Source: Verrucomicrobiia bacterium
GTDB taxonomy: Bacteria; Verrucomicrobiota; Verrucomicrobiia; Verrucomicrobiales; DEV007
Direction: 5' to 3'
Length of the DNA: 64,000 nt
Assembly: GCA_030425385.1 (NCBI GenBank)
Contig: JAUIAH010000001.1
Span: 1 to 64,000, forward strand
Of this stretch, positions 35,668 to 54,719 are shown piece after piece; position 1 is the first letter of the stretch, and each line of letters starts with the position of its first letter. The position numbers were made by a program, and so were the translations under genes. Under the pieces are notes generated by a model. The model was not told the origin of the DNA. It ran no database searches and saw only the letters and a list, made by a program, of their open reading frames with translations.

Positions 35668-35677
35668 CTCCTAGCAC

Positions 35678-36476: not shown

Positions 36477-37817
36477 CTACGCTTTGAAGAGCTGACCCGG
36501 TTTTGGCATCACGTCGGCCTTAGCCAAAGCGTTACGAGTATCGACGATGAGGTCGGCATGATCGACAAGCAATTGGAGATCGAAGGCGTCGTGGTGGGTG
36601 GCGATGATGACAGCATCGTGGTTACTGAGGGTATCGGCTTCAAAGGCGACGGATTTCGTTCCCGTCCACTCGGCGTGTTCTCGCGTGGGGGTGATGACGG
36701 GGATGTGGGGATCGTGATAGTCCACTCTTGCTCCCAGTTTCTTGAGCCCATCCATGAGTTCAAAGGTGGGCGATTCCCGCATGTCATCGACATTGGCCTT
36801 GTAGGCCAAGCCTAGCAGGAGCACCGAACTTCCGTTGACGGATTTCTGGCGTTCATTGAGAGCTTCGGTCGTCTTTTGAACAACATAGTTGGGCATGCTC
36901 ACATTGACTTCACCGGCCAACTCAATGAATCGGGTGTGGAGGCCATATTCATGGGCTTTCCAGGTGAGGTAGAAGGGATCAATGGGGATGCAGTGCCCCC
37001 CAAGTCCTGGTCCTGGATAAAAGGGCATGAACCCGAAGGGCTTGGTGGCTGCCGCATTGATGACGTCCCAGACGTCGATGCCCATGGCCTGGTAGACGAT
37101 CTTGAGTTCATTGACCAGGGCGATATTGACCGACCGAAAGATGTTCTCCGTGAGCTTGCAGGCCTCCGCCACTGCGCATGAATCCACGGCGTGCGTCACG
37201 TCGAGCGCCTTGCTATAGAGCGCCACGGCTTGGTCGCGGCAGGTAGCCGTGTACCCCCCGACGACCTTCGGAATGGAGGCGACGGAGTGATCGGTCCTTC
37301 CCGGATCTTCCCTTTCCGGGGAGTAGGCGAGATGAAAGTCTTCTCCGGCGGTGAGACCACTCCCTTTTTCCAACACGTCCCTCAGAGGACCCTCGGTAGT
37401 CCCGGGATAGGTCGTGGATTCTAAGGCGACCAGCATTTCTTTTTGGAGGTGTGGCGCAATGGCTTCTCCCGATTTGAGAACATAGGAGATATCGGGTTCG
37501 CGATGCTGGCCCAGCGGCGTGGGAACACAAATGATGACCGCACTCGCACCAGTGACCTTCGAGAAATCGGTGCTGGCCTCAAATGAGTTGGCATCGACCA
37601 CTTCTGCGATTTCCTTAGCCGCAATGTGTTTGATAAAGCTTCTTTTGGCATTGAGGGCGTCGACTTTAGATTGATCCACATCGAGACCGATGACCCTTAC
37701 ACCAGATCTGGCAAATTGGAGGGACAAGGGGAGACCGACGTAACCGAGGCCAATGATGGCGATGGTTTCGCGGTCGCTAGACGGTCGGATATCTTGAGTG
37801 GAAGCGCTAGTAGACAT
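36477..37817 (-). CDS. UDP-GlcNAc 6-dehydrogenase, WbpA-like
   Basis: The protein (446 aa from the chosen start) has the NAD motif [18 protein letters not shown], the VDALNAKRSFIKHI segment typical of WbpA, ESTTYPGTTEG and the catalytic Cys in GLGGHCIPIDPFYLTW. It should oxidise UDP-GlcNAc to UDP-GlcNAcA, the entry to the UDP-ManNAc3NAcA route. ATG 37815-37817 (MSTSASTQD) is preferred; an upstream ATG at 37883 would place 22 extra residues in degenerate repeat C sequence. The WbpD- and WbpB-like genes follow on the same strand. Confidence 0.85.
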   Translation of the reverse strand: MSTSASTQDIRPSSDRETIAIIGLGYVGLPLSLQFARSGVRVIGLDVDQSKVDALNAKRSFIKHIAAKEIAEVVDANSFEASTDFSKVTGASAVIICVPTPLGQHREPDISYVLKSGEAIAPHLQKEMLVALESTTYPGTTEGPLRDVLEKGSGLTAGEDFHLAYSPEREDPGRTDHSVASIPKVVGGYTATCRDQAVALYSKALDVTHAVDSCAVAEACKLTENIFRSVNIALVNELKIVYQAMGIDVWDVINAAATKPFGFMPFYPGPGLGGHCIPIDPFYLTWKAHEYGLHTRFIELAGEVNVSMPNYVVQKTTEALNERQKSVNGSSVLLLGLAYKANVDDMRESPTFELMDGLKKLGARVDYHDPHIPVITPTREHAEWTGTKSVAFEADTLSNHDAVIIATHHDAFDLQLLVDHADLIVDTRNALAKADVMPKPGQLFKA

Positions 37818-37959
37818 GGCGCATAAAAGATAGCGGAAAGATAGAGGCTGGACCGATTCTGGCAGAGTTAGGAATGTCGCCATTCCGGACTTTCATTCTG
37901 CCTTAGCAGGGCGGGCAGATTTTGGCTTGCAGTTGAGCGGCTTCTGGACAAACAATCCC

Positions 37960-39635: not shown

Positions 39636-40153
39636 CTAAATTCGCTGAGGAAAGTCTGGGCAATAACACGACGACACCGCGGCCTCGTCTGGAATGTCTT
39701 TGGTGTAGAAAGCTATGGAACCCTCCTGGTCACAGAACCAGACTTCTTCGGCGCCGGCGTCAAAGTAGAGCTTCTTCTTGGCGTCCATTTCTCGCGCGGT
39801 ATTCCGGGGCGAGAGCACTTCGACGCAGATTTCCGGAGCTGTTTCGAAGGCCCCAGTTGCCCTTGCACCTGGGCGAAACGCTTTTCGGTGAACCACCCCA
39901 CGTCGGCTGCTCGAACCCCATCCATGGTGGAGATGGGACACTCAGGTAGGGGATGCCCACCGAGCCGCTGGATCAACTCCATTGGATCCGGAGGGTTTGC
40001 TGACTGTGGCTTCCCGAGGCGAGGGGCATGACGAGCACTTGACACCTTTCCTGGAATTCTGGCCAGATCGGGATCCTTGAGAATTTCCTCCCAACGCCGA
40101 CGATTGAACGCCAACTGCTCCTCACGGGGTGGCAGTTCGATGACAAGTTGCAT
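39636..40153 (-). pseudogene. Uma2 family protein, frameshifted
   Basis: The protein would start MQLVIELPPREEQLAFNRRR, very close to the Uma2 at 3098-3634. At least three frame changes are needed: one before and one after the MPLASGSHS block (about 39990-40040), and one near 39855 where FAQVQGQLG jumps frame to APEICVEVLSPRN. After that the frame is sound through FDAGAEEVWFCDQEG to the stop. It is decayed, while the neighbouring Uma2 genes are intact. Confidence 0.8.
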
Positions 40154-40180
40154 GGGTAGAGCGGGTTGCTTCTGGGGAAA

Positions 40181-40214
40181 GGAACCACTAATCAACACTA
40201 ATAGACACTCATTA
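40181..40214. repeat. Repeat B, inverted copy
   Basis: The sequence GGAACCACTAATCAACACTA then ATAGACACTCATTAA is the reverse complement form of repeat B found at 3751-4930. Another inverted, shorter copy lies at 38080-38101. Confidence 0.7.
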
Positions 40215-40290
40215 AATAAAAAGAGCTGCGGCGAATAGCCAATAGGGAATCTCAGACATCCTGTACTTCTGACTTCGCCGACAAAGCCGG

Positions 40291-40797
40291 TCAGATGACA
40301 AAGGGATCGAGCGTCGTTGGAAAGTTAGGGCAGCGTTGCGACCGGGAACGGTAGCCGAGGTTTCGAATCTGAAATCGCATCTGTCCTTCCAGGTCACACG
40401 CCCAGACTTCTTCGGCACCTTGGGCAAAGTAGAGTTGGGCCTTGGCATCGATTTCCGAAGTGGTGTTTCCCTTAGACTTGACCTCCACACAAATCTTTGG
40501 GGCCTCGCTGGTGATCCTGATTTCTTTCGCTTGTTTCAGTTGCTCTGGGGTCACCCATGCCACATCAGGCACTTTGACGCCGTCCTCTGTCTGGATGGCA
40601 AATTCTTGGAGCGCCACGCCAGGCTCTTCCATCAACGTCTCTAACTTCCGTTCGATCGCTCGCTGGAAGGCCGAGTGGATGTTGAGGTGTGGGCTCATGA
40701 TGATCTGTCCCCCAGCCGTCGTCTCGACCTTATAGGGAAGGTCCTGGAACTCAGGACGCTCCACGAGGTCTACGTAATCTAGGATGGCGTTGCTCAA
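40291..40797 (-). CDS. Uma2 family endonuclease-like protein
   Basis: The protein (168 aa) shows the Uma2 core: IIMSPHLNIHSAFQRAIERK, VPDVAW near residues 95-100, APKICVEVKSKGNT near 117-130, then YFAQGAEEVWACDLEG. It is intact and more divergent than the other three copies. It lies between repeat B and repeat C copies in the gap between the nucleotide-sugar genes and the export genes. Function of the family is unknown. Confidence 0.82.
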   Translation of the reverse strand: MSNAILDYVDLVERPEFQDLPYKVETTAGGQIIMSPHLNIHSAFQRAIERKLETLMEEPGVALQEFAIQTEDGVKVPDVAWVTPEQLKQAKEIRITSEAPKICVEVKSKGNTTSEIDAKAQLYFAQGAEEVWACDLEGQMRFQIRNLGYRSRSQRCPNFPTTLDPFVI

Positions 40798-40884
40798 AGG
40801 GATGGCCGGCTTTGCCGGGGTGGAAGATGAACTTTGTCAGAGTTGGCAAGGGTTGCCTTCTGAACTCTGACTCTGACCACTTCA

Positions 40885-40920
40885 GTGGCTAGTTGGGCGA
40901 CAGGAATGTCGCCCCTCCGG
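40885..40920. repeat. Repeat C hairpin, second copy
   Basis: GTGGCTAGTTGGGCGACAGG followed by AATGTCGCCCCTCCGG. GGGCGACA and TGTCGCCC pair exactly around a GGAA loop. It lies between two Uma2 genes. Confidence 0.82.
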
Positions 40921-40937
40921 GCTACTTCTCACCTCTG

Positions 40938-41438
40938 TCAATCCATCTGGAGAAGTTTCGGAAAATGGGGACAGCGTCTGGAAGATGGGATGGGGTCAGA
41001 CGTCTTACTGGTATAGAAGGTGACGGCGCCATTCTCGTCGCAGAGCCAGACTTCCTCAGCGCCTGCCTCGTGATAAAGGCGGCGTTTCTCGACCATCTCA
41101 CCGGCGTGATTGCTGGGCGACAGAATCTCCACGCAGATCTCTGGAGCCAAGGGAAGGCTAATGGCCTTTTGGTGCGGCAGCCACCGCTCACGGCTCATCC
41201 AAGCGACATCCGCCACTCTGGTGCCGTCGCTGGTGTCGATAGGACATTCGATCAGGATGCGCCCTCCCGGAAGTTGGCGATCCAGCTCACGCGCGAGGTC
41301 GTACTGAAGGCCGCCATGCCAGCTTGACGCAGGGCTCATCATGATCTTGCCATACCGATTGGTCTCAATCTTCGCGGGAAGGTCCTGTAGCCAGGGAATT
41401 TCACAAACTTGAGTCCAGGTCAGGGCGGTTTCTGGCAT
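40938..41438 (-). CDS. Uma2 family endonuclease-like protein
   Basis: The protein (166 aa) shows KIMMSPASSWHGGLQYDLAR, VADVAWMS near residues 91-98, APEICVEILSPSNHAGEM near 116-133, then EKRRLYHEAGAEEVWLCDE. All PD-(D/E)XK-type residues are present. It lies upstream of a repeat C hairpin and downstream of the autokinase gene, on the same strand. Three Uma2 genes in a row (one decayed) suggest local amplification. Confidence 0.85.
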   Translation of the reverse strand: MPETALTWTQVCEIPWLQDLPAKIETNRYGKIMMSPASSWHGGLQYDLARELDRQLPGGRILIECPIDTSDGTRVADVAWMSRERWLPHQKAISLPLAPEICVEILSPSNHAGEMVEKRRLYHEAGAEEVWLCDENGAVTFYTSKTSDPIPSSRRCPHFPKLLQMD

Positions 41439-41530: not shown

Positions 41531-44443
41531 TCACTTTTCGTCTTCGTCCTCGGCGTGGTAGTAATCGGCGTATTCCCGGTAGCTGTAGGAGCCATAGCCG
41601 TAGTCTTTGTAGCCGTAACCGTACTGGTGTCGTTTGGAAGCCGATAGCTGGTTCATGACGGTGCCCAACACTTCCGCGTTGCCGCCTTCCATCTTCTTGA
41701 GAGCGAATTTGATTTTGTGGCGATTGAGGCCGTTGTGCTTACAGACAAAGAGGGCTTCCTCAGCGTAATTGGCGAGGAAGAGAGCATCGGGAAAGAGGCC
41801 CACCGGCGGGGTATCGATCATGATGATGTCGAACCAATCGCGAAGATTGTTGACGAGGGCCTCAAAGGGCTTGCTGGTGATGATCTCACTTGGGTTGCGG
41901 GTGGATCCACCGGCACGGAGAAGGAAGATGTCGTGCTCTTCTGACAGCGGCACGAGCCCTAGGGTGTCACTCTCTACCAGTTCTTTGGCCGATTGGGGTG
42001 GCACGCCTCCCGCTCGAAACCATTTGAGCAACCCCGCATCATTCTTCACATCGATAAGCTTGTGTTGGGAGGGCTTGCGGAGATCCCCGTCGATGATGAT
42101 GACTCGCTTCCCGTGGCGCGCAAAGGTGGCCGCCAAATTGGCTGTGACGAATGATTTCCCTTCTCCACCACCGGTCGACGACGTGACGATCGCTTTCGGC
42201 GGGGCCACTTTCGAATGGAGGTCGACAGAGCCATAGACTACACGGAAACCTTCGATGATTTGGTCGTCGCGCTCCGCCAAGACGCACTGACCGAGTTCCA
42301 TGTGGGTGAGCTTGGGTCGCTCGGGAATGCATCCCAGGCATTCCATGCCGAGGAAAGCTTCGGCTTCGCTGAAGGATTTGAGGCGCGTATCGAGGAACCC
42401 GAGACCGATGGGAAGTCCGAAGAGCCCGCCCAGGAGCAAGAGGCTGGCGAGAGCGAGTACCTTCTTCTTGTCGGGATCGATTGGATGCTCTGGAAGCACC
42501 GCCGGCGTCATGACATCGACCTTGCTCCGCTGCAAGCGCTCGGAGATCTCCGTATCTTGGTAGCGGTCCAGCAAGGAGTCGTGTTTCTCTTGGACAGCCT
42601 TGAGTTCGCTCACCATGAGGCGGTATTGAACGAGGGGGTCGTCGTCGGCCAAAGAATCCGCCTTCGCCTGATCCAGCGCACTTTCCAGATTTGCCTTCTC
42701 GTTCCGCTTCTGTTCCACGCGGTTGCGGAGATCTTGAACGGCCAGGGCGACCACATCATCCAAACGTTGCTTGGCATCAACCATCTTAGTGGCGTTGCTG
42801 ATCATCTTCGGATGCCGCTCTAGATAGCGCTGGTCGAGTTCCGCCCGCTCGGCATCCAACGCGTCATAGACAGCGCGAGCTTCAGCCACCGTACCGAACT
42901 GATTGATCACGGGCACCTGACTGAGATTGATCACATCACCAGAGGCAATGTTCTCGATCCCTTTCAACTGAATTTCGAGTTCCATCAAATCCACCTGGGC
43001 ATTGGTGGCTTGGCTTGCCAAAGCCGAGGTCTTGTTGTCCTCCATGAGGCTGGATCCATCCTCAGACTCGGTGATCCCATTGGCTCGCTTGTAGGTCAGA
43101 ATCTCTCTTTCCAACCGAACTTTCTCTTTCTTTAACGCATCCACTTGATCCTTGAGAAACCTCCCAGCCCCTGCGTAGCGGCGCTTTTCTTTCTCATCGA
43201 GGAACGGGTTGTAACAACTCACATAGGCCTGAGCCACCTGCTTCGCGACCCGTGGGTCTGGGTGACGGAAAGAGACGGCCAGAAACTGGGAGCGCTTGGG
43301 CGTGGTGACATCAAGGGGGCCCTCAGCTTTATAGAAATGATTTCGGAACAACTCTTCGCCATCTGGAAGCTCTGAGACCGCTACCTCGTCTGGTTTCTTT
43401 CCTCGGAGGGCCACGTGGATGAGACCATCAACATAGGCCCTCTTGAAAGCGTCATAGCTGCGAAACTCCTCAAGGACTCCCTTTGGATCTTCACCGAAAG
43501 CCTTCGCCACCGGACGGTTTTCCATCAAACTCTTCTCCACATACTGGCGGTAAGCCAGACTTTGCACACTCTTGGCATGCACCTGCATGACCTGTTCCAA
43601 AGTCGTGCTCCCCTCTTCCTCCAGGGCTTCAATGTTCTTGCCCAGGACATTGTTCTGGTTCATTTCCACCAGAAGCTCGGCGCTCGATTGATAGGTGGGC
43701 GGCTTGCTCATCATCCAGTAAGCGAGGCCACCCGCGAGCAACAATCCTACGGACAACCCGAGGATCCATCGTTCGCGGACCATGAAGAAGATATCACGCA
43801 AGGAGAGTTCGCGACCAATACGCGGCGCCTCATCAGGGATGAACTCGTCCTCATCGGGATACTCCTCCATTGCCGATGGCCGTCGGGGCACGCGTCCTCC
43901 GCCCCCTTGGTCTGGCATGGGCAACGGTTGCCCTACATGCTGAGGTGCCGGTGCCCCTGCTACATGCCCAGGAGCCGGGAAGGGCGCGGGCTGAGGTGGT
44001 GCCGTAGCCGCGCCCGATTGCAGCGAATGCGCGACCGCTGCTCCGACGGCGGACGGATCCGAGGCACTCGCGCGCGGGACCTTGATCCGCATGGTCGTCC
44101 CTTCACCTCCTGCTGGATCTGGAAGTTTCACCCGCATGGTCATCATGTCCTCAGCACTCGGAGGCGATCCCGATGCGGGAGCACTCGAAACGGTTCGTGG
44201 AATTTTAACCTTGAGGGTCATCAGCTCCTCAGCAAGTGGACTCTGTTTGGGTGCCGCTCCATTCTCGACTTGCGAAGGAGCCATTTCCTGGACCACTGGC
44301 TGAATGCCGTTGGAAACTTCTGCTTTCTGACGCGGCCCCTCTGATGCCTCCGCGAGAGATGCGAGCCGATCGCTTTCTTCACGGCGGTGGTTACCGTTGA
44401 TGGAATCACTCATACTGCTCAGATTACTCCCATTTAAATCCAT
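41531..44443 (-). CDS. wzc: Polysaccharide biosynthesis tyrosine autokinase (Wzc-like)
   Basis: The protein (970 aa) joins a chain-length Wzz domain to a BY-kinase. Residues 1-215 are a low-complexity cytoplasmic extension holding three similar motifs, MTLKVKIP (75), MTMRVKLP (101) and TMRIKVP (117), which is unusual for Wzc. A membrane segment follows near 235-255, then the periplasmic coiled-coil region and a second segment near 680-700. The kinase has Walker A TGGGEGKS (near 753), Walker A' IIIDGDLRKP and Walker B IIMIDTPPVG. The tail carries ten Tyr (QYGYGYKDYGYGSYSYREY...), the autophosphorylation cluster. ATG 44441-44443 overlaps the Wza stop by 10 bp; an ATG 30 bp later is also possible. 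Confidence 0.9.
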   Translation of the reverse strand: MDLNGSNLSSMSDSINGNHRREESDRLASLAEASEGPRQKAEVSNGIQPVVQEMAPSQVENGAAPKQSPLAEELMTLKVKIPRTVSSAPASGSPPSAEDMMTMRVKLPDPAGGEGTTMRIKVPRASASDPSAVGAAVAHSLQSGAATAPPQPAPFPAPGHVAGAPAPQHVGQPLPMPDQGGGGRVPRRPSAMEEYPDEDEFIPDEAPRIGRELSLRDIFFMVRERWILGLSVGLLLAGGLAYWMMSKPPTYQSSAELLVEMNQNNVLGKNIEALEEEGSTTLEQVMQVHAKSVQSLAYRQYVEKSLMENRPVAKAFGEDPKGVLEEFRSYDAFKRAYVDGLIHVALRGKKPDEVAVSELPDGEELFRNHFYKAEGPLDVTTPKRSQFLAVSFRHPDPRVAKQVAQAYVSCYNPFLDEKEKRRYAGAGRFLKDQVDALKKEKVRLEREILTYKRANGITESEDGSSLMEDNKTSALASQATNAQVDLMELEIQLKGIENIASGDVINLSQVPVINQFGTVAEARAVYDALDAERAELDQRYLERHPKMISNATKMVDAKQRLDDVVALAVQDLRNRVEQKRNEKANLESALDQAKADSLADDDPLVQYRLMVSELKAVQEKHDSLLDRYQDTEISERLQRSKVDVMTPAVLPEHPIDPDKKKVLALASLLLLGGLFGLPIGLGFLDTRLKSFSEAEAFLGMECLGCIPERPKLTHMELGQCVLAERDDQIIEGFRVVYGSVDLHSKVAPPKAIVTSSTGGGEGKSFVTANLAATFARHGKRVIIIDGDLRKPSQHKLIDVKNDAGLLKWFRAGGVPPQSAKELVESDTLGLVPLSEEHDIFLLRAGGSTRNPSEIITSKPFEALVNNLRDWFDIIMIDTPPVGLFPDALFLANYAEEALFVCKHNGLNRHKIKFALKKMEGGNAEVLGTVMNQLSASKRHQYGYGYKDYGYGSYSYREYADYYHAEDEDEK

Positions 44444-45036
44444 CGCTGCTTCACGGAGACGATATCTCCAGGAAATAGAACGACGGGCTTACTTTTCCCT
44501 GAAATAATATCCTCAGCGTTGATCTCGATGATTTTGCCGTTCTTGCGGGTGATTCGCACCTTCTTCTTGTTGGCAATCTGCTTGAAATCGCCTGCGTTGG
44601 CGATGGCCGTCATGAGATCGATCTGCACCTGCCCTCCTGGAATGACCACCGTGCCTGGTTTGTTGACGGCACCTAGCACCGAAATGGAGCGCTCAACAAA
44701 CTGAGCAACGGTGACGGTGACCTGCGGGTGCCTCAGAAACCGTTCGTCACGATAGGCTGCCTCGATGGCCTTCTCCGCCTCGCGGGCTGTCTTGCCGGCC
44801 ACGCGTATCTCTTCAATCAACGGAAGCGTGACCATGCCGTTGTTCGCGACCGCACGCTCGACGCAAAGTTCATCTTCTTGATGGACACTGATCGCAATGC
44901 GATCGCTTGCAGAGATGCGGTAATTCGCGTTGGCCGTCTCTTGAGCCAACGCTGATCCCAGGCCGAGGACGACGGCCAGAGAGGCGATGAGGGGGAGGAA
45001 TTTCACAGGGTATCGGGGATTGAGGTCCAAACGCAT
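44434..45036 (-). CDS. wza: Polysaccharide export protein, Wza-like
   Basis: The protein (200 aa from the chosen ATG) has a signal peptide (FLPLIASLAVVLGLGSALAQ), a Poly_export domain (YRISASDRIAISVHQEDELC) and one SLBB domain (VLGAVNKPGTVVIPGG). At about 200 aa it is much shorter than E. coli Wza (about 380) and resembles the short single-SLBB forms of PVC bacteria. It should form part of the outer-membrane/periplasmic channel. A GTG 15 bp upstream is an alternative start. Its 3' end overlaps the autokinase start, so they form an operon. Confidence 0.88.
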   Translation of the reverse strand: MRLDLNPRYPVKFLPLIASLAVVLGLGSALAQETANANYRISASDRIAISVHQEDELCVERAVANNGMVTLPLIEEIRVAGKTAREAEKAIEAAYRDERFLRHPQVTVTVAQFVERSISVLGAVNKPGTVVIPGGQVQIDLMTAIANAGDFKQIANKKKVRITRKNGKIIEINAEDIISGKSKPVVLFPGDIVSVKQRWI

Positions 45037-45142
45037 CCCAGACCTAAGCACGGATCACTGGAAAACGAATGGAGAAATCTGGAAATATTAGGTTCCTTTG
45101 CGAGAATCAGGCTTCTAAATCCTGAAGGAACCCTTTCCGCCA

Positions 45143-46240
45143 CTAGAAGGTGTAAGAGCCAGAAAGACCAAAGCGCAGACGGTCGTAATTGAGGAAGTCT
45201 CGGTTTGATTGGCTGTCTTCGTAGGTCAACGAGGCACTGAGTGAAGCCGCGGGACTGAGCTGCCACACCAATGCGGCACGGAAAAGCAGCGATTCATCAC
45301 TGCGATCCAAGCCGAAGTCGTCATAGGAGGTGTCAGAATAGGAGACCCCAACAGAAGCCGATAGATCGTGTCGCAGGGCCGTGGCGGCCGCTAGTCCCGC
45401 TGAACTGCGGCGCCCTGAGGCACCCGTTGAGGTGGTGAGGAAGCCGATCGACCCCGTGGCAACGATCTCGATGCGCTCGTTGAGAGCCCAATCGAGGCTG
45501 ATATTCACATAGGGGTCGGAGGAATCGCCGAACTCCGTCTCGCGGAACTGGAAACCCACACCGAGGGTACCCGTGAGCTTGGGAGTGAGTTCACCCTCTG
45601 CTTGAAGGCTGAAGGTGGAATCTTGCGTGTCGACCGAGGCCGACGTTTCCGAGTATCCGTAACCTAACACGATGTCTAATTTCTCGGAATAGCGGTAGAT
45701 GAAACCCAGATTGTATCCCCAAGTCGATTGATCACTTCTCGCCAAATCATATTCCACCTCCGCCCAACGCCCCCCTATGCGGAAGCCCCAGCGCTCGTTG
45801 ACATTATACCGAAGACCTCCAGAAACATAGAGGTTATCCACCTGCAAACGGCCACCAAGGAACTGGTCCACTCGCGTCGTCTGCGAATAGCCCCCCGAAA
45901 GCGTCAAGGTATACGGAAGCTCAGGGGTGTTCGGATAGGTCAAGGAGACGCCCCCGCTAAAGTCTTCGTAATTGTATTCACTGTGGTCCGCAAAGAAACC
46001 GAAGGCGCCACCCAAACTGGCATCGACCCCGAGGAGCCCTGATTGCCTGGTGAAGGTGAACGTCGGCGCGTAAACGAATTCCACATCGGAATCGGAATCA
46101 CTTCGTCCCTCGATCTTCGAGTCGTAGGTGGCGGACACCTCATTGCGAAATTGGAAGGGTCCGAGAATGTCTGCGTCCGATTGCGCGTAGGCGAGCGGAG
46201 AGAGAGCCAGGAAGAGATAGAGTGGGATGAGGTTTCGCAT
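45143..46240 (-). CDS. Outer-membrane beta-barrel protein of the export locus
   Basis: The protein (365 aa) has a signal peptide ending LSPLAYA-Q and then alternating beta-strand sequence to the C-terminal FGLSGSYTF, the aromatic end residue typical of outer-membrane barrels. No enzyme motif is seen. It is the first gene of the export group, 106 bp upstream of the Wza-like gene. Barrels in this position are thought to complete the outer-membrane exit of short Wza forms; that role is inference. An inverted repeat (GGTTCCTT/AAGGAACC, 45091-45132) lies between it and the next gene. Confidence 0.82.
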   Translation of the reverse strand: MRNLIPLYLFLALSPLAYAQSDADILGPFQFRNEVSATYDSKIEGRSDSDSDVEFVYAPTFTFTRQSGLLGVDASLGGAFGFFADHSEYNYEDFSGGVSLTYPNTPELPYTLTLSGGYSQTTRVDQFLGGRLQVDNLYVSGGLRYNVNERWGFRIGGRWAEVEYDLARSDQSTWGYNLGFIYRYSEKLDIVLGYGYSETSASVDTQDSTFSLQAEGELTPKLTGTLGVGFQFRETEFGDSSDPYVNISLDWALNERIEIVATGSIGFLTTSTGASGRRSSAGLAAATALRHDLSASVGVSYSDTSYDDFGLDRSDESLLFRAALVWQLSPAASLSASLTYEDSQSNRDFLNYDRLRFGLSGSYTF

Positions 46241-46474
46241 GAGAGGTTGGATGACGAAATGATCTGCGGCTGGAATCCGCAGCTACGTGATAGGCAGGCA
46301 GGCAGCAACAGCTTCCCGCACGCTGCCGCCCTTGGTCGGCATGCGGCATAGCATTGCGGACGGGCACTCTCTAGGCAAAGGTTCCTTAAGCAACAACGGG
46401 AAATTCTTCAAGAGGGAAGACTAGAAATCGTAGAAAGCGGATATTTCCCGGATATTGGACTGACTATACAGAAA

Positions 46475-46500
46475 AGGCCCAGTGGCGAACCACTGGGCCT
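46475..46500 (-). terminator. Intrinsic terminator after the PEP-CTERM gene
   Basis: On the minus strand AGGCCCAGTGG, a TTCG loop and CCACTGGGCCT form a perfect 11-bp stem followed by TTTTC. It lies 24 bp past the stop of the PEP-CTERM gene, so this gene is a separate transcript from the export genes downstream. Confidence 0.88.
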
Positions 46501-46523
46501 CGAATCAAACGAAAACGGGACGC

Positions 46524-47099
46524 TTAAGCAGAGCGCTTGCGGCGCAGCATCACAGGCAAGCCTGCGAGGAGCATCCAGAGGGCTGCCGTTGGCTCAGGCA
46601 CGGCACGAACGCGGAGGAAACCTCCACCGTTGAGCACGGTGCCATTCTGCTGGATCACGTCGATGTGGATAGAGTGATCTCCAGGCCCTAGCCAGAACGT
46701 GCCAGAACTCCAGGTGTCATCACCGAAAGCGACATCAGGATTAGGCGTGTTGGGGCTGTTATCGTCCCCAGCAGGCACCATGGATGTGGGTCCAAGAAGG
46801 GCGCCGTTGTTGTAGACCTGGAAGATGTCACCGGCGAGATCGTAGTCGGTCACATCAAGGTAAGCGTAATCATAGAGGGTGAACTCGTAAGGATCTTCAA
46901 GAGCACCGAGGCTCCCATTGTAGCCTGAAGGCTCTGGCGGAAACCACTGGAACTGAGTCCATTCACCATTGGTTGGCAGGGGGGTCGGCCCTCCAAGCGC
47001 CACGGACCCCTGAACATTTGCCAATGTCAGGAAGATCGCACTCACTCCGAGAGGCAACACCCGCCGCATGACGGATTTGCTAGTTGATATAAGTTTCAT
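46524..47099 (-). CDS. PEP-CTERM sorting domain protein
   Basis: The protein (191 aa) has a signal peptide (VLPLGVSAIFLTLANVQGSV) and the C-terminal sorting signal VPEPTAALWMLLAGLPVMLR with a basic tail RKRSA. It should be exported and processed by an exosortase, which is not in this window. The middle part, PDVAFGDDTWSSGTFWLGPG then DHSIHIDVI, aligns well with the PEP-CTERM protein at 52697-53299, so the two are homologous. The neighbouring large gene (47247-49127) also has a homologue beside that second PEP-CTERM gene. ATG 47097-47099 is chosen because the signal peptide starts there. A strong terminator follows. Confidence 0.87.
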   Translation of the reverse strand: MKLISTSKSVMRRVLPLGVSAIFLTLANVQGSVALGGPTPLPTNGEWTQFQWFPPEPSGYNGSLGALEDPYEFTLYDYAYLDVTDYDLAGDIFQVYNNGALLGPTSMVPAGDDNSPNTPNPDVAFGDDTWSSGTFWLGPGDHSIHIDVIQQNGTVLNGGGFLRVRAVPEPTAALWMLLAGLPVMLRRKRSA

Positions 47100-47246
47100 A
47101 AATGCAGGTTGAATTGAGGTTCGACGCCTATCAACAAGCAAAGTTTTAGAAAGTCAAAGCCAAGACTCCATTTTCCAGAATTTGATTCCATAATTTTTAT
47201 CCAACAGCGGACATTGGATATGGTAATTATAATAGATATAGAACCA

Positions 47247-49127
47247 TTACTTTGTGGTAGGCAGCCACACTGAATTGGTCGCATTTCTGAGGGACGCTTC
47301 GTCAGCGAAGGCTGAGTCCTCAAGGTCCTCCAAAGGGTCCTTGGCCCAATCGGCAGCCAGCACGCGCGCGATCTCAAACTGCCCACGCTCCAGTTCATAG
47401 CCGGAGGGATGTGCGAGTGTGAGGAACATCCGCTGAATCTTGCGATTCCCGAGGACATGCTCCACGAGCGCGTGACGATGGGTTCCCCGCTTGACGTACC
47501 CGTAGAAGGTCTCGTCATGATCATCGGACGCGAGTTGGTAACACTGATAGAGATGCGAGTCTTCGAAGGCAAAGTTGTAGTATTCGCCTCGCTCGACAAA
47601 GACCCTGACACTTGCCTCGACAGGAGGGTCATCCAGCAGTCGATCAATGGGAAAGGTGCCTTGGCGAATGTAGGCTTCCCAATCAACGTAGAGCTTTCCA
47701 TCGCGAGGATTGGTAACCAGGCAGATGAGCCGGTTCGTGTCGTTCACAAAGCCCACGCGAAAGGCGAAGAAGGAAAGTGCGCCCGAGCGTCCTTGACCCA
47801 GAGACTGGACGAACTCGGCCACTTCTTCTCGCCCGCGTTCCGATTGGAAATACTCGCGTGCCACGCCGCAATAGCGCAGATCGCTGATAAGCGCGACGCG
47901 CTCTTCGATATCTTCCGAATAGGCAAAGGTATCGGCAACATCGTGCGCATCTTGATAGGAGACATCAGAGGAATTCCCACCGGCCACGACGGAGGCGACT
48001 GTGCCGTCCTCATCCAACGCCGTTGCAGGATCTGATGATTGCCCATTCCTCGCCTGAAGAGCAACCAATGCTGACAAAAGGACAATGGCTGCCAGGCCAA
48101 TCCAGCGCACGGCTTGTCCCACTTCAGCGGGAAGCTCCTTCACTCCTTCTGAACGCGAACGCCTCGCCAAGGACCCGTCGGCGTGCCGGACAGGACTCCA
48201 ATCGCGTTCTGTTTGGGTATCGACCGCCTCTCGCCGGGAACGCCGTTGCTCCATCTTGGGCATTCGCGAGGGATAGAGGCGACGACGCTTGCGATCGTGG
48301 CCCGGCAAGGGACGCGCTTCCTCGTCGCGCTGACTGCGGGAGGCATCCACAGCCTCTCCCACAAGCGATTGCAAACTCACCACCATCTCCGAGGCAGCGT
48401 CCATGGCGCGCTGAGGCACCTGCCCCTGCCTGGGCGCCACGGGAGCGGCGCTTGGCCCTCCGAGAAGCAGCTGCCCCGCGAGACACTGGCGCATTTCAGG
48501 CGTGGGCTTCCGAATGAGGAGACGGCTTGTCGCCGCCAAGAGAAGCTCGGGCTGCGGCCATGCCAGCCGTTCCCGGTGCTTCAAAAGGTCCGCCACCGCC
48601 ACCACCAGCGCTCCACCGATGGCTTCAGGACCCGGCACCACGGTTGCTTTCCCAGCAAAGGCCTTCTCAAGCTCCGCCGCGTCGACTGCGGCATCCAGGT
48701 CGCGACTTGGGAGAGCATTGGTTTCGAGCGCTCCCACCACGGAGGCGAGACAGGAACGGGTTTGTTCGCGGCCTGCCTCATCCATCCAGAAAAGGCCACC
48801 ACCTTCCACCACGAGTTGCAGTAACCCGGTCGTCACCACGTGACAGGCATGGAGATCGAGAGGCGACTTCTTTCCATGATCTGCCCATGGGCCGATCAAA
48901 TAGTCCACTGCGGCCAGGTGGTAGGCGGGGAATGGGCGCACCTGGAAACCTTCGATCAACGTGAGCCAGGACGCGGGCGTCTCAGATGAAACCTCGCGCA
49001 TCTTCTCAAGAACGCGTCGCAACATCTTCCAAACGAGCACCTCTTCCCCGAGAGACGTCGCTGTCTGCTCCAAGAAAGGGGCACTTCGTGGGGGCGCGCC
49101 GGCGCGCGATTCTTTGAAGAGGTGCAA
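47247..49127 (-). CDS. Single-pass membrane protein with VDWEA domain (long form)
   Basis: I recognise no named family for this 626-aa protein. Residues 1-230 look globular and cytoplasmic, 265-330 are very rich in Arg and charged residues, and 341-358 form one membrane segment (IGLAAIVLLSALVALQA). Residues 380-626 should be periplasmic. The C-terminal domain shares an ordered set of motifs with the protein at 53349-54719: YVDWEA (480), YYNFAFED (516), YQCY, YGYVKRG (542). A PEP-CTERM gene follows 147 bp downstream. The same pairing occurs at 52-54 kb, so the two genes probably work together at the cell envelope. The function itself is not known. Confidence 0.75.
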   Translation of the reverse strand: MHLFKESRAGAPPRSAPFLEQTATSLGEEVLVWKMLRRVLEKMREVSSETPASWLTLIEGFQVRPFPAYHLAAVDYLIGPWADHGKKSPLDLHACHVVTTGLLQLVVEGGGLFWMDEAGREQTRSCLASVVGALETNALPSRDLDAAVDAAELEKAFAGKATVVPGPEAIGGALVVAVADLLKHRERLAWPQPELLLAATSRLLIRKPTPEMRQCLAGQLLLGGPSAAPVAPRQGQVPQRAMDAASEMVVSLQSLVGEAVDASRSQRDEEARPLPGHDRKRRRLYPSRMPKMEQRRSRREAVDTQTERDWSPVRHADGSLARRSRSEGVKELPAEVGQAVRWIGLAAIVLLSALVALQARNGQSSDPATALDEDGTVASVVAGGNSSDVSYQDAHDVADTFAYSEDIEERVALISDLRYCGVAREYFQSERGREEVAEFVQSLGQGRSGALSFFAFRVGFVNDTNRLICLVTNPRDGKLYVDWEAYIRQGTFPIDRLLDDPPVEASVRVFVERGEYYNFAFEDSHLYQCYQLASDDHDETFYGYVKRGTHRHALVEHVLGNRKIQRMFLTLAHPSGYELERGQFEIARVLAADWAKDPLEDLEDSAFADEASLRNATNSVWLPTTK

Positions 49128-49275
49128 GATTTCAGGCTCGTTTGATAATCCCTTGAGAACGAAGATCTATAAACGCAGGAACGCGACTCGTCACTTCCAA
49201 AGTCCGTGACAGATAAGCGAAACAAGAACCGTCTTCAAAACGCGCCTCACTTTCGGGAACGCTCAATCGTTCCTA

Positions 49276-51132
49276 TCATTCACGAAATCCAGAAAGCGTG
49301 AAGGTTCCGACCTCACCTGGAAAGAGCGTCGAGGCAAAGGCGTAGTAGCGTTTACTCGGCTCGATCACAAAGGAAAGGGTCGTTTCCGTTTCTGGATTGC
49401 CTTCCGTCTGCGTGACCAGGGCGTTATTCTGATCCGTCACGGCCAGGAACGGTCGGAAGCCGCCTGCCTCTGGATCCGAGATCATGGTGAGCGTCACTTG
49501 GTTGCCCACGATTCCCCCAAGAATTTCGTAAACATTCCGATAATAGTTTCCGTCAAAACCACTCCTCGCCACACTCAACGTGCCCTGAACGGGCTGGAGT
49601 CCCAATTGAAGGAAACTTGGAGGATTGAGGAGATTCGGATAGTAGAAATAATAGTCACCTTCCGGCCTGTCCTCGACCGAAGATAAACGAAGTTCATAAG
49701 TGGTATCGGCATCACTTTGGAAAGCCGCATTCAAGCTGTGATTCCCGTCCTCACCAGCTTCCATGAGAAGCTCACCGGAGGAGGCGTCACGTACTTGAAG
49801 CAGAGGGGAGAACCCAGCCGCCTGAAAGATGAAACGCGTGGTTGCGTTAGGAAGTCCATCCGCACGATACCGCCATTCTCGACGACCTGTCTCGGGATCC
49901 TCTCGCCATCCGGCCACGTCTCCTTGCGAATAGAACTCTCGCGAATGACTAGCACTCACGCTACTAGCACCCCAATGAGGGCGACTCTGTACACGGAAGA
50001 ACCCTGCGCCCTCAACCGCCAATCCTGGCACGGTCACTCGCTCATGAATGGTATCTATCACAGCGACACGTTGCGGAGGAAAGGCTGCTCCGAGGGGGTT
50101 CCATTCTTTCAACCCTAACGAATGCTCCACAGCAAAGGCCACGTCGCTGCGGTGCAGAAAGGAAAGCGTCGCCTGATTGCTAGGATCAATCGAGAGGCCC
50201 ATCGGCGACGCGCGACCTGACTGGGGATCGGATACCAAGGCAAACTCAGCGAAGTTGATCAGACCATCGCCATCATCATCTCCCCACAGTCCACTGGCCA
50301 AGGCGTGTTCTGCCTGCCATTCTGCAAATTCCGGAAACACATACCCCATGATCCATTCGCGATGATGGACGAGATTCGCAAAGACCGCATAGCCGGAACA
50401 TTGCCCGATCACGTAACTGGTCACCCCGACCAATTGCCATTGCCCCTCCACGTCGACCAAGAGTGGCCCGCCACTATCTCCATAACAAATCCCCAGGTCT
50501 TCGGTTCCCGAGTAGGCTGGCAACCCATCAAGAAAGAAGCCCTCGCCAGTGGCAGCGGAAGCCTCCAATCGCTCTAGCACATCCACGTCCAATTGATGCA
50601 AGGTGCGAGCAGCATTCGTGTGATCCCATCCCAAAGCGGCAAAGGATTCCGCACGGGTCAGTTCGCCTTCAAACAGGCGCACAGGTTCGATGCCGTCCAC
50701 GGGGCGATCGAGCCGGAGCAGAGCAAGGTCCCCATCATGCTGCCCATCACGGAAGAAATAGCGTTCGTGGAGCACCATTTCCACGACCCGATAGCGCTGT
50801 TCAGCCGTGGGACTCTGGTTCAAGCCATCCAAGCCCACGACCACTTCAAACTCGTCAGGCGAGATCTGTTTCACGCAGTGAGCAGCGGTCAAGACCCACG
50901 ACGGATGAATCAGCATCCCCGAGCAGAAATGTCCCGTTCGCGGCGTGGCGCCAGTCCCATTCACCAGGGCAGCCATCCAGGGAAACGCCCGCTCGGGCAC
51001 CACCTGCCCGCCACTGATGCCCCACAAGGGGGTCACTCCGGCCCCCAGGAGGGCACACAGAAAGAATACAGACCTTAAATATCTGTATTGAATAAATTTT
51101 GACAGACGAATTCTAAAATCCATGATTTCCAT
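49276..51132 (-). CDS. Secreted trypsin-like serine protease
   Basis: The protein (about 618 aa) has a signal peptide (SVFFLCALLGAGVTPLWG), then a chymotrypsin-fold domain starting ISGGQVVPERAFPWMAAL. Residue numbers below count from the GTG codon at 51135. The catalytic triad is visible: H86 in LTAAHC, D136 in DGDLALLRL, S221 in YGDSGGPLL. Residues 286-297 (DDDGDGLINFAE) form the calcium-type linker common in Verrucomicrobiota, followed by about 320 residues of beta-rich sequence that may bind glycan or protein. ATG 51130-51132 has an AGAAAG just upstream. It is divergent from the WecA-like gene (33 bp apart) and lies between the two PEP-CTERM modules, so a link to them is plausible but unproven. 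Confidence 0.87.
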   Translation of the reverse strand: MEIMDFRIRLSKFIQYRYLRSVFFLCALLGAGVTPLWGISGGQVVPERAFPWMAALVNGTGATPRTGHFCSGMLIHPSWVLTAAHCVKQISPDEFEVVVGLDGLNQSPTAEQRYRVVEMVLHERYFFRDGQHDGDLALLRLDRPVDGIEPVRLFEGELTRAESFAALGWDHTNAARTLHQLDVDVLERLEASAATGEGFFLDGLPAYSGTEDLGICYGDSGGPLLVDVEGQWQLVGVTSYVIGQCSGYAVFANLVHHREWIMGYVFPEFAEWQAEHALASGLWGDDDGDGLINFAEFALVSDPQSGRASPMGLSIDPSNQATLSFLHRSDVAFAVEHSLGLKEWNPLGAAFPPQRVAVIDTIHERVTVPGLAVEGAGFFRVQSRPHWGASSVSASHSREFYSQGDVAGWREDPETGRREWRYRADGLPNATTRFIFQAAGFSPLLQVRDASSGELLMEAGEDGNHSLNAAFQSDADTTYELRLSSVEDRPEGDYYFYYPNLLNPPSFLQLGLQPVQGTLSVARSGFDGNYYRNVYEILGGIVGNQVTLTMISDPEAGGFRPFLAVTDQNNALVTQTEGNPETETTLSFVIEPSKRYYAFASTLFPGEVGTFTLSGFRE

Positions 51133-51164
51133 CACTTTCTAAACATTCTCCCCCTGAACCCTTC

Positions 51165-52652
51165 GTGAATGCTGGCCTCTTCTTCTACGCGATCATTGTC
51201 GCTTTCAGCGGGCTTGGGTCCGTTTGTTGGTGTCATCTGATTCTGAAGCGAAGGCTCGGAGCTTCGCAGCGGGGGCACGCAGAACGCTATCGCAAAGCCG
51301 AAGAGACGCAAATCTCCCGTCTCGGCGGATTGGGAGTCTTCCTGGGCTTTGTCGGAGGCCTGGCGGTCTTCGTCGTGAGTGGGCATGCGGAATCTTGGCA
51401 GTCCTGGCTGATTCCAGTAGGCACCGCCACCCTGATGTTCGGTCTTGGGGCGTGGGATGACGTCGCTCATTTGGGATCGCGCTTCAAACTTCTGGTGCAC
51501 ATCGGAATCGCCTTGGCGGCCTACTGGGCCGGACTGCGGGTCGAATCGCTGACGGCGTTCGGCGGAGAGTCTCTACGCATTGGCGAGACCCTTTCTATCA
51601 TCCTCACCGTGGGATGGCTGATCGCCATTCCCAATATCATCAATCTGATCGATGGCATCGATGGGATGGCGGCCGGGCTCGGGGTCTTCGTTTGTACCAC
51701 TCTTGCCGCCGTGGCCTTTGGCGCTGATCAGATTATCACCACTGGTCTTGCGCTTGCTCTCGCTGGTTCTTTGGCCGGCTTCCTAAGATTCAATTTCCCT
51801 CCGGCGCGTCTCTATCTCGGCGACAGTGGCGCGTATTTCATCGGCTCAATCATCGCCGCCGGCTCCATCCAAAGCTCTCAAAAGGGATCCATCGCCGCGA
51901 TCCTCCTCGTGGTGATGATTGCCCTCGGACTCCCGATTCTGGATACTCTTTGGGCAATCGTCCGGCGAGCGGCCAGGGGCCTCCCGATCTTTCGAGGCGA
52001 CGCGCGCCATATTCACCATCGCCTCTTGCAGAAAGGGTATTCCAAGCGGCAAGTGGTCATTTCCCTTTATGTCATTTGTCTCACGCTGTCTGGAGCCGCT
52101 CTCACCGTCTTCTGGACGCATGGTCACGCGCTTCCCATCGTGGGTGCAGGACTCTTCGTAGGGGCGCTCTTTCTCATCCGCACCTGTGGGACATCGGCCG
52201 GCTGGCCCCAATTGAAACGGCATCTAGGCACCGCGTCGCGCTGGCGCCAGGATATCCAACGGGCGCATCGGGCGGGAGAATACCTTCTCAGCGAGCTCGA
52301 TCATTGCCGGGATCAAGGGGAATTCTGGCGTCTCTTCGAAGCCTCCTCGGCGCGTCTTGGCTTCGACCCGCGACCGAATCATGCTGTCTTTCCCCTCAAA
52401 AGTGTGGTCGTCGTCACCGCAGGCAACCCTCCCATGGAGCTCTACTACCCTGAAGAGCAGCATGCGGAGCGGAATTGGTGGGGCCAAGCAGACTGTCTCT
52501 ACCCTGCTTATATTGCTGGAAAGAACCAGTGGGAAAAGGTTGACGAAACGGTTCCAGCGGTTCAAGATTCCGAGAAAGAGTCGATTGATGCTCGCCCCAC
52601 GCGACTAAATTTGCTCAAAAGAAGTTTTCCCTTTGCAAAGCTCCCAAATTAG
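51165..52652 (+). CDS. WecA/MraY-family phosphoglycosyl transferase with C-terminal extension
   Basis: This polytopic enzyme (495 aa) transfers sugar-1-phosphate from a UDP-sugar to undecaprenyl phosphate. The family motifs are all present: LGAWDDVAHLGSRFKL (94-109), NLIDGIDGMAAG (160-171), LYLGDSGAYFIG (216-227) and RHIHHRLLQKGYS (281-293). WecA proteins usually end near 340-370; here a soluble region of about 140 residues follows the last membrane segment, with no family I recognise. The start is GTG 51165. It may start glycan synthesis for the large locus to the left, or for a glycan attached to PEP-CTERM proteins. Confidence 0.87.
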   Translation: MNAGLFFYAIIVAFSGLGSVCWCHLILKRRLGASQRGHAERYRKAEETQISRLGGLGVFLGFVGGLAVFVVSGHAESWQSWLIPVGTATLMFGLGAWDDVAHLGSRFKLLVHIGIALAAYWAGLRVESLTAFGGESLRIGETLSIILTVGWLIAIPNIINLIDGIDGMAAGLGVFVCTTLAAVAFGADQIITTGLALALAGSLAGFLRFNFPPARLYLGDSGAYFIGSIIAAGSIQSSQKGSIAAILLVVMIALGLPILDTLWAIVRRAARGLPIFRGDARHIHHRLLQKGYSKRQVVISLYVICLTLSGAALTVFWTHGHALPIVGAGLFVGALFLIRTCGTSAGWPQLKRHLGTASRWRQDIQRAHRAGEYLLSELDHCRDQGEFWRLFEASSARLGFDPRPNHAVFPLKSVVVVTAGNPPMELYYPEEQHAERNWWGQADCLYPAYIAGKNQWEKVDETVPAVQDSEKESIDARPTRLNLLKRSFPFAKLPN

Positions 52653-52696
52653 CTAACCTGAACTCGTTGATTTCTAATAATTCTAAAACTACCCCA

Positions 52697-53299
52697 ATGT
52701 TTATGAAGCGCACTATCAAAGCAATTATCGGATGTGGCCTCTTGCTTGCTGCCACACAAAGTTACGGCCAAGTCATGATCGGTGATACCACTGGAGTCGC
52801 TGGAGACGCTGCCTGGAAGCGCCTCACTTGGTTCGAAAGTGATGTCCAAGCCGGCAACGTATTTGCCTGGAACGCTGACGATCTCGTGCGCGACAACGAC
52901 GTGAATGACGTCTTTCGTGTGACCGTCAACAATGGCTTCACTGGAATGCTCGACGTGGTCGACATCGGAGTGGATAACGATCGTTACGAAGTCCTCGACT
53001 TCAACAACAGCCTCGCTTCTCTCGGCTCCACTGGAGCCTATGCTGATCTCAATACGTCCTCAAGTGCCGGTGCGCTTTCTCCTGACTTCACCTTTGCTGA
53101 TGGTGACTGGAGTCAGGGCACGATCGGTCTCGCCGCAGGAACACATGATTTCAAAGTGGCATGGATCGACACGCCAGCCGATCAAGTGACCAACGGTTCT
53201 GTCTACGTGCGCTTCACCCAGCAGGTGATCCCTGAACCTAGCTCAGCGCTACTCGGACTGCTCGGTCTTGGTTTCTGCGTGCTTCGCCGCCGCCGCTAA
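52697..53299 (+). CDS. PEP-CTERM sorting domain protein (second copy)
   Basis: The protein (200 aa) has a signal peptide (IKAIIGCGLLLAATQSYGQ) and the C-terminal sorting signal VIPEPSSALLGLLGLGFCVL with RRRR. The body, PDFTFADGDWSQGTIGLAAG then THDFKVAWID, aligns with the PEP-CTERM protein at 46524-47099. It may start at ATG 52697 or 52703. It follows the WecA-like gene by 44 bp and precedes the membrane protein at 53349 by 49 bp on the same strand, so the three could form an operon. Confidence 0.87.
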   Translation: MFMKRTIKAIIGCGLLLAATQSYGQVMIGDTTGVAGDAAWKRLTWFESDVQAGNVFAWNADDLVRDNDVNDVFRVTVNNGFTGMLDVVDIGVDNDRYEVLDFNNSLASLGSTGAYADLNTSSSAGALSPDFTFADGDWSQGTIGLAAGTHDFKVAWIDTPADQVTNGSVYVRFTQQVIPEPSSALLGLLGLGFCVLRRRR

Positions 53300-53348
53300 C
53301 TGAGATTCCGCGTTTGAAATTTCGGCCCGCCTCGGTTTAGGCTTACAG

Positions 53349-54719
53349 GTGCCTGACCATCAAGGAAATCAACCGAGGGATGAGCGAGATGAGATTAGCG
53401 TTCTAAAGGACGCTATCGCGGAGCTGGAAAGCAGCATCGCCGAAGTTCAATCTGAAGATTCTGAAGCCGTAGAAGAGGATGCCTCTTCTGCGGCTTCTTC
53501 CGTTTCGAGGGGAGATGTCGCTGATGAGGATCTTGAGGCCCTTGATTCCACACCCTCTCATCGGGGAGCCACCATCCCCGACTACGATGATACCAAGGAA
53601 TCCCAGGCACAGCGCGCCTTTGAGGAGTTGGGCAAGGCCTCGATTCATGATCGGGCTGTTCGCGGGCCTCTGATCAAGCAAGCCCTCGCCAAGAGCTGGC
53701 GCCGCAGTTGGCGCAAGCGCACGATTGGAGGATCTCCCGTCGATATCCGGCGGACCAAGCTCTCCATGAGCAATGCCGCCGCGGCCGCCAATCAGGCAGC
53801 GGACGATGACGATGAGGTGCTCGTCTCACGGAGCAAGCGCATTGGATTTGAAGAAGAGCGGCCAGAGATTGATGACCTGAATCAACCAGCCAACCGACGC
53901 GAGCTGCGGACGGCCATTCTGATCTCTCGAGTGGTGGCTGGATTGGTCTTCCTCGGCGTTCTCACCGCCGTGTTTGCCCTTGCCAACCGCAAGTCACAGG
54001 AAGAGGAAACGGCCGCTGTGAGTCCCATCGAGGATTGGGCGGATCAGCATCAACTTGTGGCTTCCGCGCAGGATACCATTGCGAGTTATGCGCTCGCAAA
54101 GACGATTGGAGGGCGGGCTCAGCACGTGAACGATGCGGAACGCGTCCGGCCGCTGATGGAGCGCTACTACAGGAATCACCCGTTGCCCAAGAGCGACGAG
54201 CCGCCACTGACATCAATCGTCTCCAATCGCTCCCAACACATCCATTCCGAAGTCCCCGACAGTCATGTCTTGGGAGGCTATCAAGACCATGTGGGCTTCG
54301 CGCAAGAACTCGTGCTTGTCCCCGGGAAGGAGCGTTACCTGGTCGATTGGGAGGCTTCCGTCGGCTACAATGAGCAATCGCTCTCCGAACTCATTACCCT
54401 GCGCCCTGACAAGACGTATCGAATGCGCCTCCAGGTGATGCCAGCCAACTACTACAATTTCCAGTTCGACGATCGGTTACGCTATCAATCATTCGTCGTA
54501 AAGGTGGCCGATGACAGCGAGGCTCGCCGCTATGCCTACGTCACGCGCAAGTCAAAGGCGTTTCAGGATCTCATGGATCACTTCGCCAATCGTGACCCGC
54601 GTCCCATCGCCATGATCCTCGACGTGCGCTTCCCTGACGGTGAAGATCCCGTCGTGGAAATCCTGAACGTCCACCAGCCCCATTGGGTGCATTCGGGCCC
54701 TCTGGCCCCGCCCAAGTAA
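53349..54719 (+). CDS. Single-pass membrane protein with VDWEA domain (short form)
   Basis: The protein (456 aa) has an acidic, low-complexity cytoplasmic region (residues 1-185, with a basic patch SWRRSWRKR near 116-124), one membrane segment (189-212) and a periplasmic C-terminal domain. In that domain the motifs LVDWEA (331), YYNFQFDD (368), YQSF and YAYVTRK (395) match in order those of the 626-aa protein at 47247-49127. The start is GTG 53349. It directly follows the second PEP-CTERM gene. I know no named family; an envelope function together with the PEP-CTERM protein is inferred from the repeated pairing. Confidence 0.75.
   Translation: MPDHQGNQPRDERDEISVLKDAIAELESSIAEVQSEDSEAVEEDASSAASSVSRGDVADEDLEALDSTPSHRGATIPDYDDTKESQAQRAFEELGKASIHDRAVRGPLIKQALAKSWRRSWRKRTIGGSPVDIRRTKLSMSNAAAAANQAADDDDEVLVSRSKRIGFEEERPEIDDLNQPANRRELRTAILISRVVAGLVFLGVLTAVFALANRKSQEEETAAVSPIEDWADQHQLVASAQDTIASYALAKTIGGRAQHVNDAERVRPLMERYYRNHPLPKSDEPPLTSIVSNRSQHIHSEVPDSHVLGGYQDHVGFAQELVLVPGKERYLVDWEASVGYNEQSLSELITLRPDKTYRMRLQVMPANYYNFQFDDRLRYQSFVVKVADDSEARRYAYVTRKSKAFQDLMDHFANRDPRPIAMILDVRFPDGEDPVVEILNVHQPHWVHSGPLAPPK

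Follow-up and report, generated by a model that had tools for sequence, protein, structure and literature searches.

Why should two secreted proteins with a PEP-CTERM sorting tail each be encoded beside a membrane protein of one and the same kind? The question is raised by a locus of a Verrucomicrobiia bacterium (positions 1 to 64,000 of contig JAUIAH010000001.1, assembly GCA_030425385.1; this whole 64,000-nucleotide stretch is called the window here), in which the PEP-CTERM proteins PEP1 and PEP2 are neighbours of the membrane proteins V1 and V2, respectively, both carrying a VDWEA motif. The first-pass annotation had taken the four genes for a duplicated module. The four open reading frames (ORFs) lie where it had put them (Table 1), and the two homologies it had noticed hold: PEP1 and PEP2 are homologous over about 200 amino acids (27% identity, E 7e-14), and V1 and V2 over 264 aligned amino acids from the transmembrane (TM) helix to the C-terminus (25% identity, E 2e-8), where VDWEA, YYNFxFxD, YQ and YxYVxR follow one another in both, as it had described. 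Its single-pass topology with unequal cytoplasmic parts is also correct, since one TM helix with a positive-inside N-side is predicted in each protein and the cytoplasmic part has 338 amino acids in V1 and 189 in V2. Because basic residues are more numerous on the N-side of the helix, the VDWEA part is assigned to the periplasm. The PEP-CTERM assignment stands for PEP2, which exceeds both cut-offs (PF07589, 24.9 bits against 20.7; TIGR02595, 21.3 bits against 16). PEP1 falls under both of them (10.7 bits in Pfam and 12.9 in NCBIfam), yet its tail has all three elements, namely the PEP motif, the hydrophobic stretch and RRKR; its orthologue at locus L127 ends in VPEPGATLWLLGVGLLGGLRRRR. What had been missed is a large paralogue family around V1 and V2, with about 25 members in the host genome.

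The pairing of VDWEA and PEP-CTERM genes is real and recurrent, as had been proposed. The host genome, an assembly of 8.0 Mb in 74 contigs, was searched for the family with V1 and V2 and then with a profile of 22 periplasmic modules, and its PEP-CTERM set consists of 37 tails, the union of the PF07589 and TIGR02595 matches; genes outside the window are longest-ORF calls, in which some starts and short genes are uncertain. Among these 25 members and 37 genes there are 8 same-strand pairs within 2-3 kb, compared with 0.23-0.35 expected (Poisson p 1.6e-10 to 3.8e-9), and the same count gave 0 opposite-strand pairs in the host genome. With PEP1 included in spite of its scores, nine pairs are found at 23 scanned loci. 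In the relatives, where PEP-CTERM neighbours were counted by a simple tail detector, an adjacent same-strand PEP-CTERM gene accompanies 3 of 15 members in the genus mate G001, 4 of 13 in G002 and 2 of 11 in G003, and, in other genera of the family, 4 of 20 in G011, 1 of 5 in G010 and 0 in the rest. Background, measured on the non-adjacent genes of these loci, amounts to about 1% in the host genome and 0-6% elsewhere. These neighbour counts are too low, because contig ends hide some neighbours and three partners had to be added on inspection (L131, L139 and L161, all with PEP-CTERM-like tails, that of L139 over the Pfam cut-off). The gap between the two genes ranges from -4 to about 150 bp. The adjacency suggests a membrane-bound helper or receptor for each tagged protein individually. 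Among the partners, the PEP-CTERM protein at L131:4857-5960 has a metalloprotease-like HExxH motif; a trypsin-like PEP-CTERM protease is encoded at L193:1299-2369. At L046:6930-11918 of the host genome, two genes for VDWEA proteins are interleaved with those for two secreted proteins, whose body is common to PEP-CTERM proteins elsewhere in this genome but which lack the tail.

Moreover, the pairs are kept by orthologues. Paired members cluster strongly in a tree of 134 modules, and both the pair and its gene order are preserved in the V2 clade (4/4), the L063 clade (4/4), the L056 clade (3/3), L060/L131 (2/2) and L168/L161 (2/2), with orthologous pairs persisting at 37-40% identity. The order, PEP-CTERM gene before VDWEA gene or the reverse, is a stable trait in most lineages and not the outcome of the rearrangement that the first-pass annotation had read from the window. 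Well-supported branches of a wide FastTree tree force at least 7 changes of pairing state; a genus-only IQ-TREE tree gives six and is also compatible with one origin. The gene order of the window, from protease through V1, PEP1 and beta-barrel gene to the Wza-like and Wzc-like genes, recurs in G002, with a WecA-like gene diverging, and is also present at L127. The neighbours of V1 and the protease in G001 are WecA remnants, two PEP2-type genes and V2. In G003, the WecA-like gene, PEP2 and V2 are kept and the protease gene directly adjoins that for the beta-barrel protein; neither V1 nor PEP1 is present, and because of this joint absence pair 1 behaves as a unit.

The VDWEA family itself is previously unnamed, and its association with PEP-CTERM genes is also new. 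The view that no description existed agrees with literature searches, which, with subscription papers outside their coverage, found no account of it. In the 39 members searched, the module matched nothing in Pfam or NCBIfam, and a sequence search of the PDB gave no solved homologue at E up to 10. The family is present in 23 of 24 relatives, with 0-35 copies per genome. Of 145 genomes sampled across the phylum, 12 have matches, every one from Verrucomicrobiales, and none was found outside that order. A motif taken from a five-row alignment and scanned against 84,980 species genomes gave 33 loci, all labelled Verrucomicrobia or its orders except one in a metagenome-assembled genome labelled Bacteroidales (L089), which is probably contamination, since every other match is from Verrucomicrobiota; there were no matches in viral contigs. 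All 22 aligned members have a cytoplasmic part, one TM helix and a periplasmic module of about 240 residues, and in most of them the N-side of the helix is positive-inside. In the module, the Trp of VDWE is invariant, and an Arg, an Ile and a Trp further along are nearly so; no catalytic signature is seen in the family alignment. The cytoplasmic parts vary and contain a zinc ribbon, a helix-turn-helix (HTH), a coiled coil or nothing assigned. In a set of 92, the match is most often to a zinc ribbon, listed under one or another Pfam name, and HTH_Tnp_1 is found in six. The zinc ribbon, present in many relatives, is absent from V1 and V2; the cytoplasmic part of V1 matches no family, and that of V2 opens with a heptad-like stretch. 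Transposase-type HTH domains occur in L051:7831-9123, L057:9019-10695 and their orthologues, and such members may be membrane-tethered DNA-binding proteins.

An AlphaFold2 model of the V2 module from 39 aligned sequences (predicted local distance difference test, pLDDT, 86; predicted template modelling score, pTM, 0.81) predicts a membrane-proximal NTF2-like domain followed by an OB fold. The NTF2-like half has a pLDDT of about 80-96 in most blocks. In domain-wise alignment, which was limited to re-aligning Foldseek's own list, residues 25-131 match NTF2-like domains, with Z 9.3 across 97 residues for the Enterococcus PBP5 N-terminal domain, 8.4 for the NTF2 domain of RsgI9 and 7.6-8.5 for other NTF2-like entries, and residues 132-239 match the anticodon-binding OB domains of AspRS and AsnRS (Z 8.1-9.3). 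The VDWEA motif forms the end of the NTF2-like half, at the junction with the OB fold. The missing Pfam or NCBIfam match does not exclude an NTF2-like fold, because this superfamily has no common sequence motif according to PMC3924330. The top rows of the whole-model Foldseek search were rejected as spurious two-OB alignments with a root-mean-square deviation of 13 A, and a model of the PEP2 body (pLDDT 59 from five sequences) was too poor for use.

The oldest conserved setting of the family is the position after a gene for a class A penicillin-binding protein (PBP). At 14 loci (L093:4023-7609, L201:1905-5870, L055:7696-9411 and 11 more), a VDWEA member lies directly downstream of such a gene, with the PBP gene always upstream and gaps of -4 to 68 bp, including a 4-bp overlap in three cases. 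These loci belong to Akkermansia, Roseibacillus, Rubritalea and other Akkermansiaceae, and to the host genome too; neither V1 nor V2 directly follows a Transgly plus Transpeptidase gene. Most of the PBP-linked members carry a zinc ribbon, and the zinc-ribbon VDWEA protein and the class A PBP look like a conserved peptidoglycan-linked pair of their own. PEP-CTERM partners, on the other hand, are found for 21 of 72 members without a zinc ribbon versus 2 of 53 with one (Fisher p 3e-4, uncorrected for relatedness). It is established that the family has recurrent co-encoded partners and that these, whether a class A PBP or a PEP-CTERM protein, belong to the envelope too, being periplasmic or tethered to the membrane. 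At five loci (L078, L088, L095, L096 and L162), a gene for an Hsp70-like (DnaK-type) protein lies directly upstream of the VDWEA member.

What, then, does a paired VDWEA protein do? We tentatively favour a membrane-anchored, partner-specific periplasmic scaffold or holdase; a holding or positioning role agrees with the tight operon coupling, with pairs formed one to one and with the absence of catalytic residues. Whereas the pairing is well supported, we infer the mechanism, that is, physical binding, its timing relative to the exosortase and the holding role. The PEP-CTERM protein, exported by Sec, would stay in the inner membrane through its C-terminal helix until released by the exosortase, and the neighbouring VDWEA protein, oriented N-in/C-out in the same membrane, would bind it through the NTF2-OB module. 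Binding would occur close to the membrane, between Sec export and exosortase cleavage, while the substrate is still anchored. The VDWEA protein would thereby hold or position its partner for processing or for hand-over to the exopolysaccharide or envelope machinery, and the variable cytoplasmic part would tie the complex to whatever each lineage uses inside. As to origin, the oldest conserved members stand behind the class A PBP gene, and in the bacterial family to which the window belongs several lineages have come to share an operon with a single PEP-CTERM surface protein. It is rather doubtful that Verrucomicrobiales have a strict one-to-one system, recruited from an ancestral class A PBP partner, in which individual PEP-CTERM substrates must each be bound by a private co-encoded, membrane-anchored NTF2-OB protein before the exosortase releases them; if true, this would add a new layer of substrate-specific control to exosortase sorting.

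Several observations weigh against a scaffold or holdase. Family-wide, only 23 of about 134-145 members have a PEP-CTERM neighbour. As most homologues are without one, a point which the first-pass annotation had itself set against its idea, the VDWEA protein is not a general PEP-CTERM component; yet a subset of lineages is paired, and it is this subset, not the whole family, that are PEP-CTERM partners. Conversely, most of the about 37 PEP-CTERM proteins of the host genome have no VDWEA neighbour, so such a partner is unnecessary for sorting in general. In addition, the paired PEP-CTERM bodies other than PEP1 and PEP2 are unrelated to these two and mostly to one another, falling into several families. 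A common body as the cause of pairing is thereby ruled out, and any binding surface common to the partners would need to lie in the tail region, or else to have arisen by case-by-case co-evolution. Finally, the whole-model Foldseek search gave no match at E <0.001.

A different, rather unlikely function is that of a transmembrane sensor or regulator, in which the NTF2-OB module senses the exported neighbour or its ligand, the cytoplasmic part relays the signal and the PEP-CTERM protein is input or output. The zinc ribbons of many members and the transposase-type HTH of some agree with this, and ligand sensing by extracellular NTF2-like domains joined through a TM helix to intracellular zinc ribbons or kinases has been proposed (PMC3924330). 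However, pairing is concentrated in the members without a zinc ribbon, and a recognised output domain is found in 0 of the 9 paired members of the host genome; the forms with a zinc ribbon or HTH suit a sensor role better than the paired ones do. It is improbable that the VDWEA protein is a processing accessory that brings an exosortase or a protease to a single substrate or itself belongs to the cleavage complex. PEP-CTERM proteins do wait for the exosortase in the inner membrane, and a conserved trypsin-like protease gene lies upstream of V1 and PEP1. Against this, besides the missing catalytic signature, none of the five PF09721 exosortase matches over the cut-off in the host genome is inside the window, and the protease is present only at pair 1 and is retained in G003 although V1 and PEP1 are gone. 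Only a small chance is given to neutral co-location, in which lineage-specific envelope accessory genes lie side by side with no joint function. Both kinds of gene are expanded and fast-evolving, many members stand beside unrelated genes, and the genus-only tree allows a single origin of pairing, but the strict same-strand bias, the 4-bp overlaps, the pairs kept at 37-40% identity and the joint absence in G003 speak against it. Least of all can the locus be one locally duplicated and then rearranged module, as first supposed, even though the PEP1 and PEP2 bodies are homologous and both pairs lie in one exopolysaccharide region: a clade of V1 and V2 is rejected by the approximately unbiased (AU) test (p-AU 0.00026, within model limits), the two proteins fall into different well-supported clades with different nearest kin (L127, L106, L062 and L059 for V1; L126, L064 and L134 for V2), and the window's two pairs are therefore separate lineages.

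Table 1. Positions of the two gene pairs, their parts and the surrounding exopolysaccharide genes in the window
Feature	Position	Strand	Basis
PEP1, secreted PEP-CTERM protein, 191 aa, partner of V1	46524-47099	-	ORF, tail profiles, PEP2 alignment, orthologue in L127
PEP1 sorting tail, PEP-CTERM type, VPEPTAALWMLLAGLPVMLRRKRSA	46527-46601	-	
Intrinsic-terminator-like hairpin, 12 pairs, directly 3' of PEP1	46474-46501	-	consensus match only
V1, VDWEA-family single-pass membrane protein, 626 aa	47247-49127	-	
V1 TM helix	48057-48113	-	predicted
V1 periplasmic NTF2-like plus OB-fold module, residues 355-599	47331-48065	-	match to family hidden Markov model
V1 VDWEA motif	47673-47687	-	
Trypsin-like secreted protease, upstream of V1; position kept in sister genomes	49276-51135	-	
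WecA-like polyprenyl-phosphate sugar transferase, 44 bp upstream of PEP2	51165-52652	+	
PEP2, secreted PEP-CTERM protein, 200 aa, partner of V2	52697-53299	+	
PEP2 sorting tail, PEP-CTERM type	53228-53296	+	
V2, VDWEA-family single-pass membrane protein, 456 aa, starts 49 bp past PEP2	53349-54719	+	
V2 TM helix	53916-53972	+	predicted
V2 NTF2-like fold, model residues 25-131	54045-54365	+	predicted structure
V2 VDWEA motif	54342-54356	+	
V2 OB fold, model residues 132-239	54366-54689	+	predicted structure
Exopolysaccharide genes adjoining pair 1	41531-46240	-	profile matches
Beta-barrel protein	45143-46240	-	
Wza-like exporter	44434-45051	-	
Wzc-like kinase	41531-44443	-	
Epimerases	24792-25895; 31623-32693		
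Oxidoreductases	27065-28042; 34282-35274		
UDP-sugar dehydrogenases	30208-31518; 36477-37883		

By consensus matching, no terminator-like hairpin was found in the gap between V1 and PEP1. Bodies of the PEP1/PEP2 type occur, among the sequences compared, at this locus only and at the N-terminus of one large protein, a secreted protein of 1355 amino acids (L064:9457-13524) in which this body is followed by MBG domains and an FGE-sulfatase domain. The gene for it lies downstream of V2 in sister genomes and is absent behind V2 in the window. Elsewhere in the exopolysaccharide region, the nucleotide-sugar genes are present twice (24792-37883), which suggests a block duplication. Three transposase-like genes (18744-19802, 21790-23352 and 23330-24445) split the glycosyltransferase region at 18744-24445, and three similar Uma2-like ORFs stand in a row at 39713-41438.

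Where a PEP-CTERM protein is co-encoded with a membrane protein, the latter offers a concrete handle on its function, from export to surface display. Because family members also stand behind the class A PBP gene in organisms of wider interest, Akkermansia and its relatives, the basic activity of the family could be studied there. The closest known systems include the DUF4878, DUF3828 and DUF3887 proteins, a described kind in which extracytoplasmic NTF2-like domains are tied to intracellular zinc ribbons (PMC3924330). The VDWEA family is like them in having a cytoplasmic zinc ribbon (mainly in unpaired members), one TM helix and an extracytoplasmic NTF2-like fold; unlike them, it adds a C-terminal OB fold, matches no Pfam family, mostly lacks the zinc ribbon in its paired members and is restricted to Verrucomicrobiales. 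The nearest structural neighbours of the NTF2-like half, the N-terminal domain of Enterococcus PBP5 and the NTF2 domain of RsgI9, are likewise membrane-proximal and extracytoplasmic, but they have no sequence similarity to the module, and their fusion partners are a transpeptidase or S1C and anti-sigma parts. The PBP5 domain is of the MecA_N type. Staphylococcal TcaA, a Gram-positive protein, also has a zinc ribbon, a TM helix, an extracellular NTF2-like domain and a link to the cell wall, and in these four points, compared by description only, the VDWEA family can be likened to it; TcaA is not known to have an OB fold or a PEP-CTERM partner. With regard to the PEP-CTERM/exosortase (EpsH) system, most PEP-CTERM proteins were described in 2006 as single-gene operons past large intergenic regions, and the associated proteins named in the available portion of that paper are EpsH, EpsI, the regulators PrsK and PrsR and a tetratricopeptide repeat (TPR) protein, with no dedicated membrane partner for each substrate (PMC1569441). 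The VDWEA pairs differ from that system in this respect. They resemble it in that a signal peptide, a PEP motif, a hydrophobic stretch and a basic tail are present in both PEP1 and PEP2, the host has exosortases, and exopolysaccharide genes adjoin.

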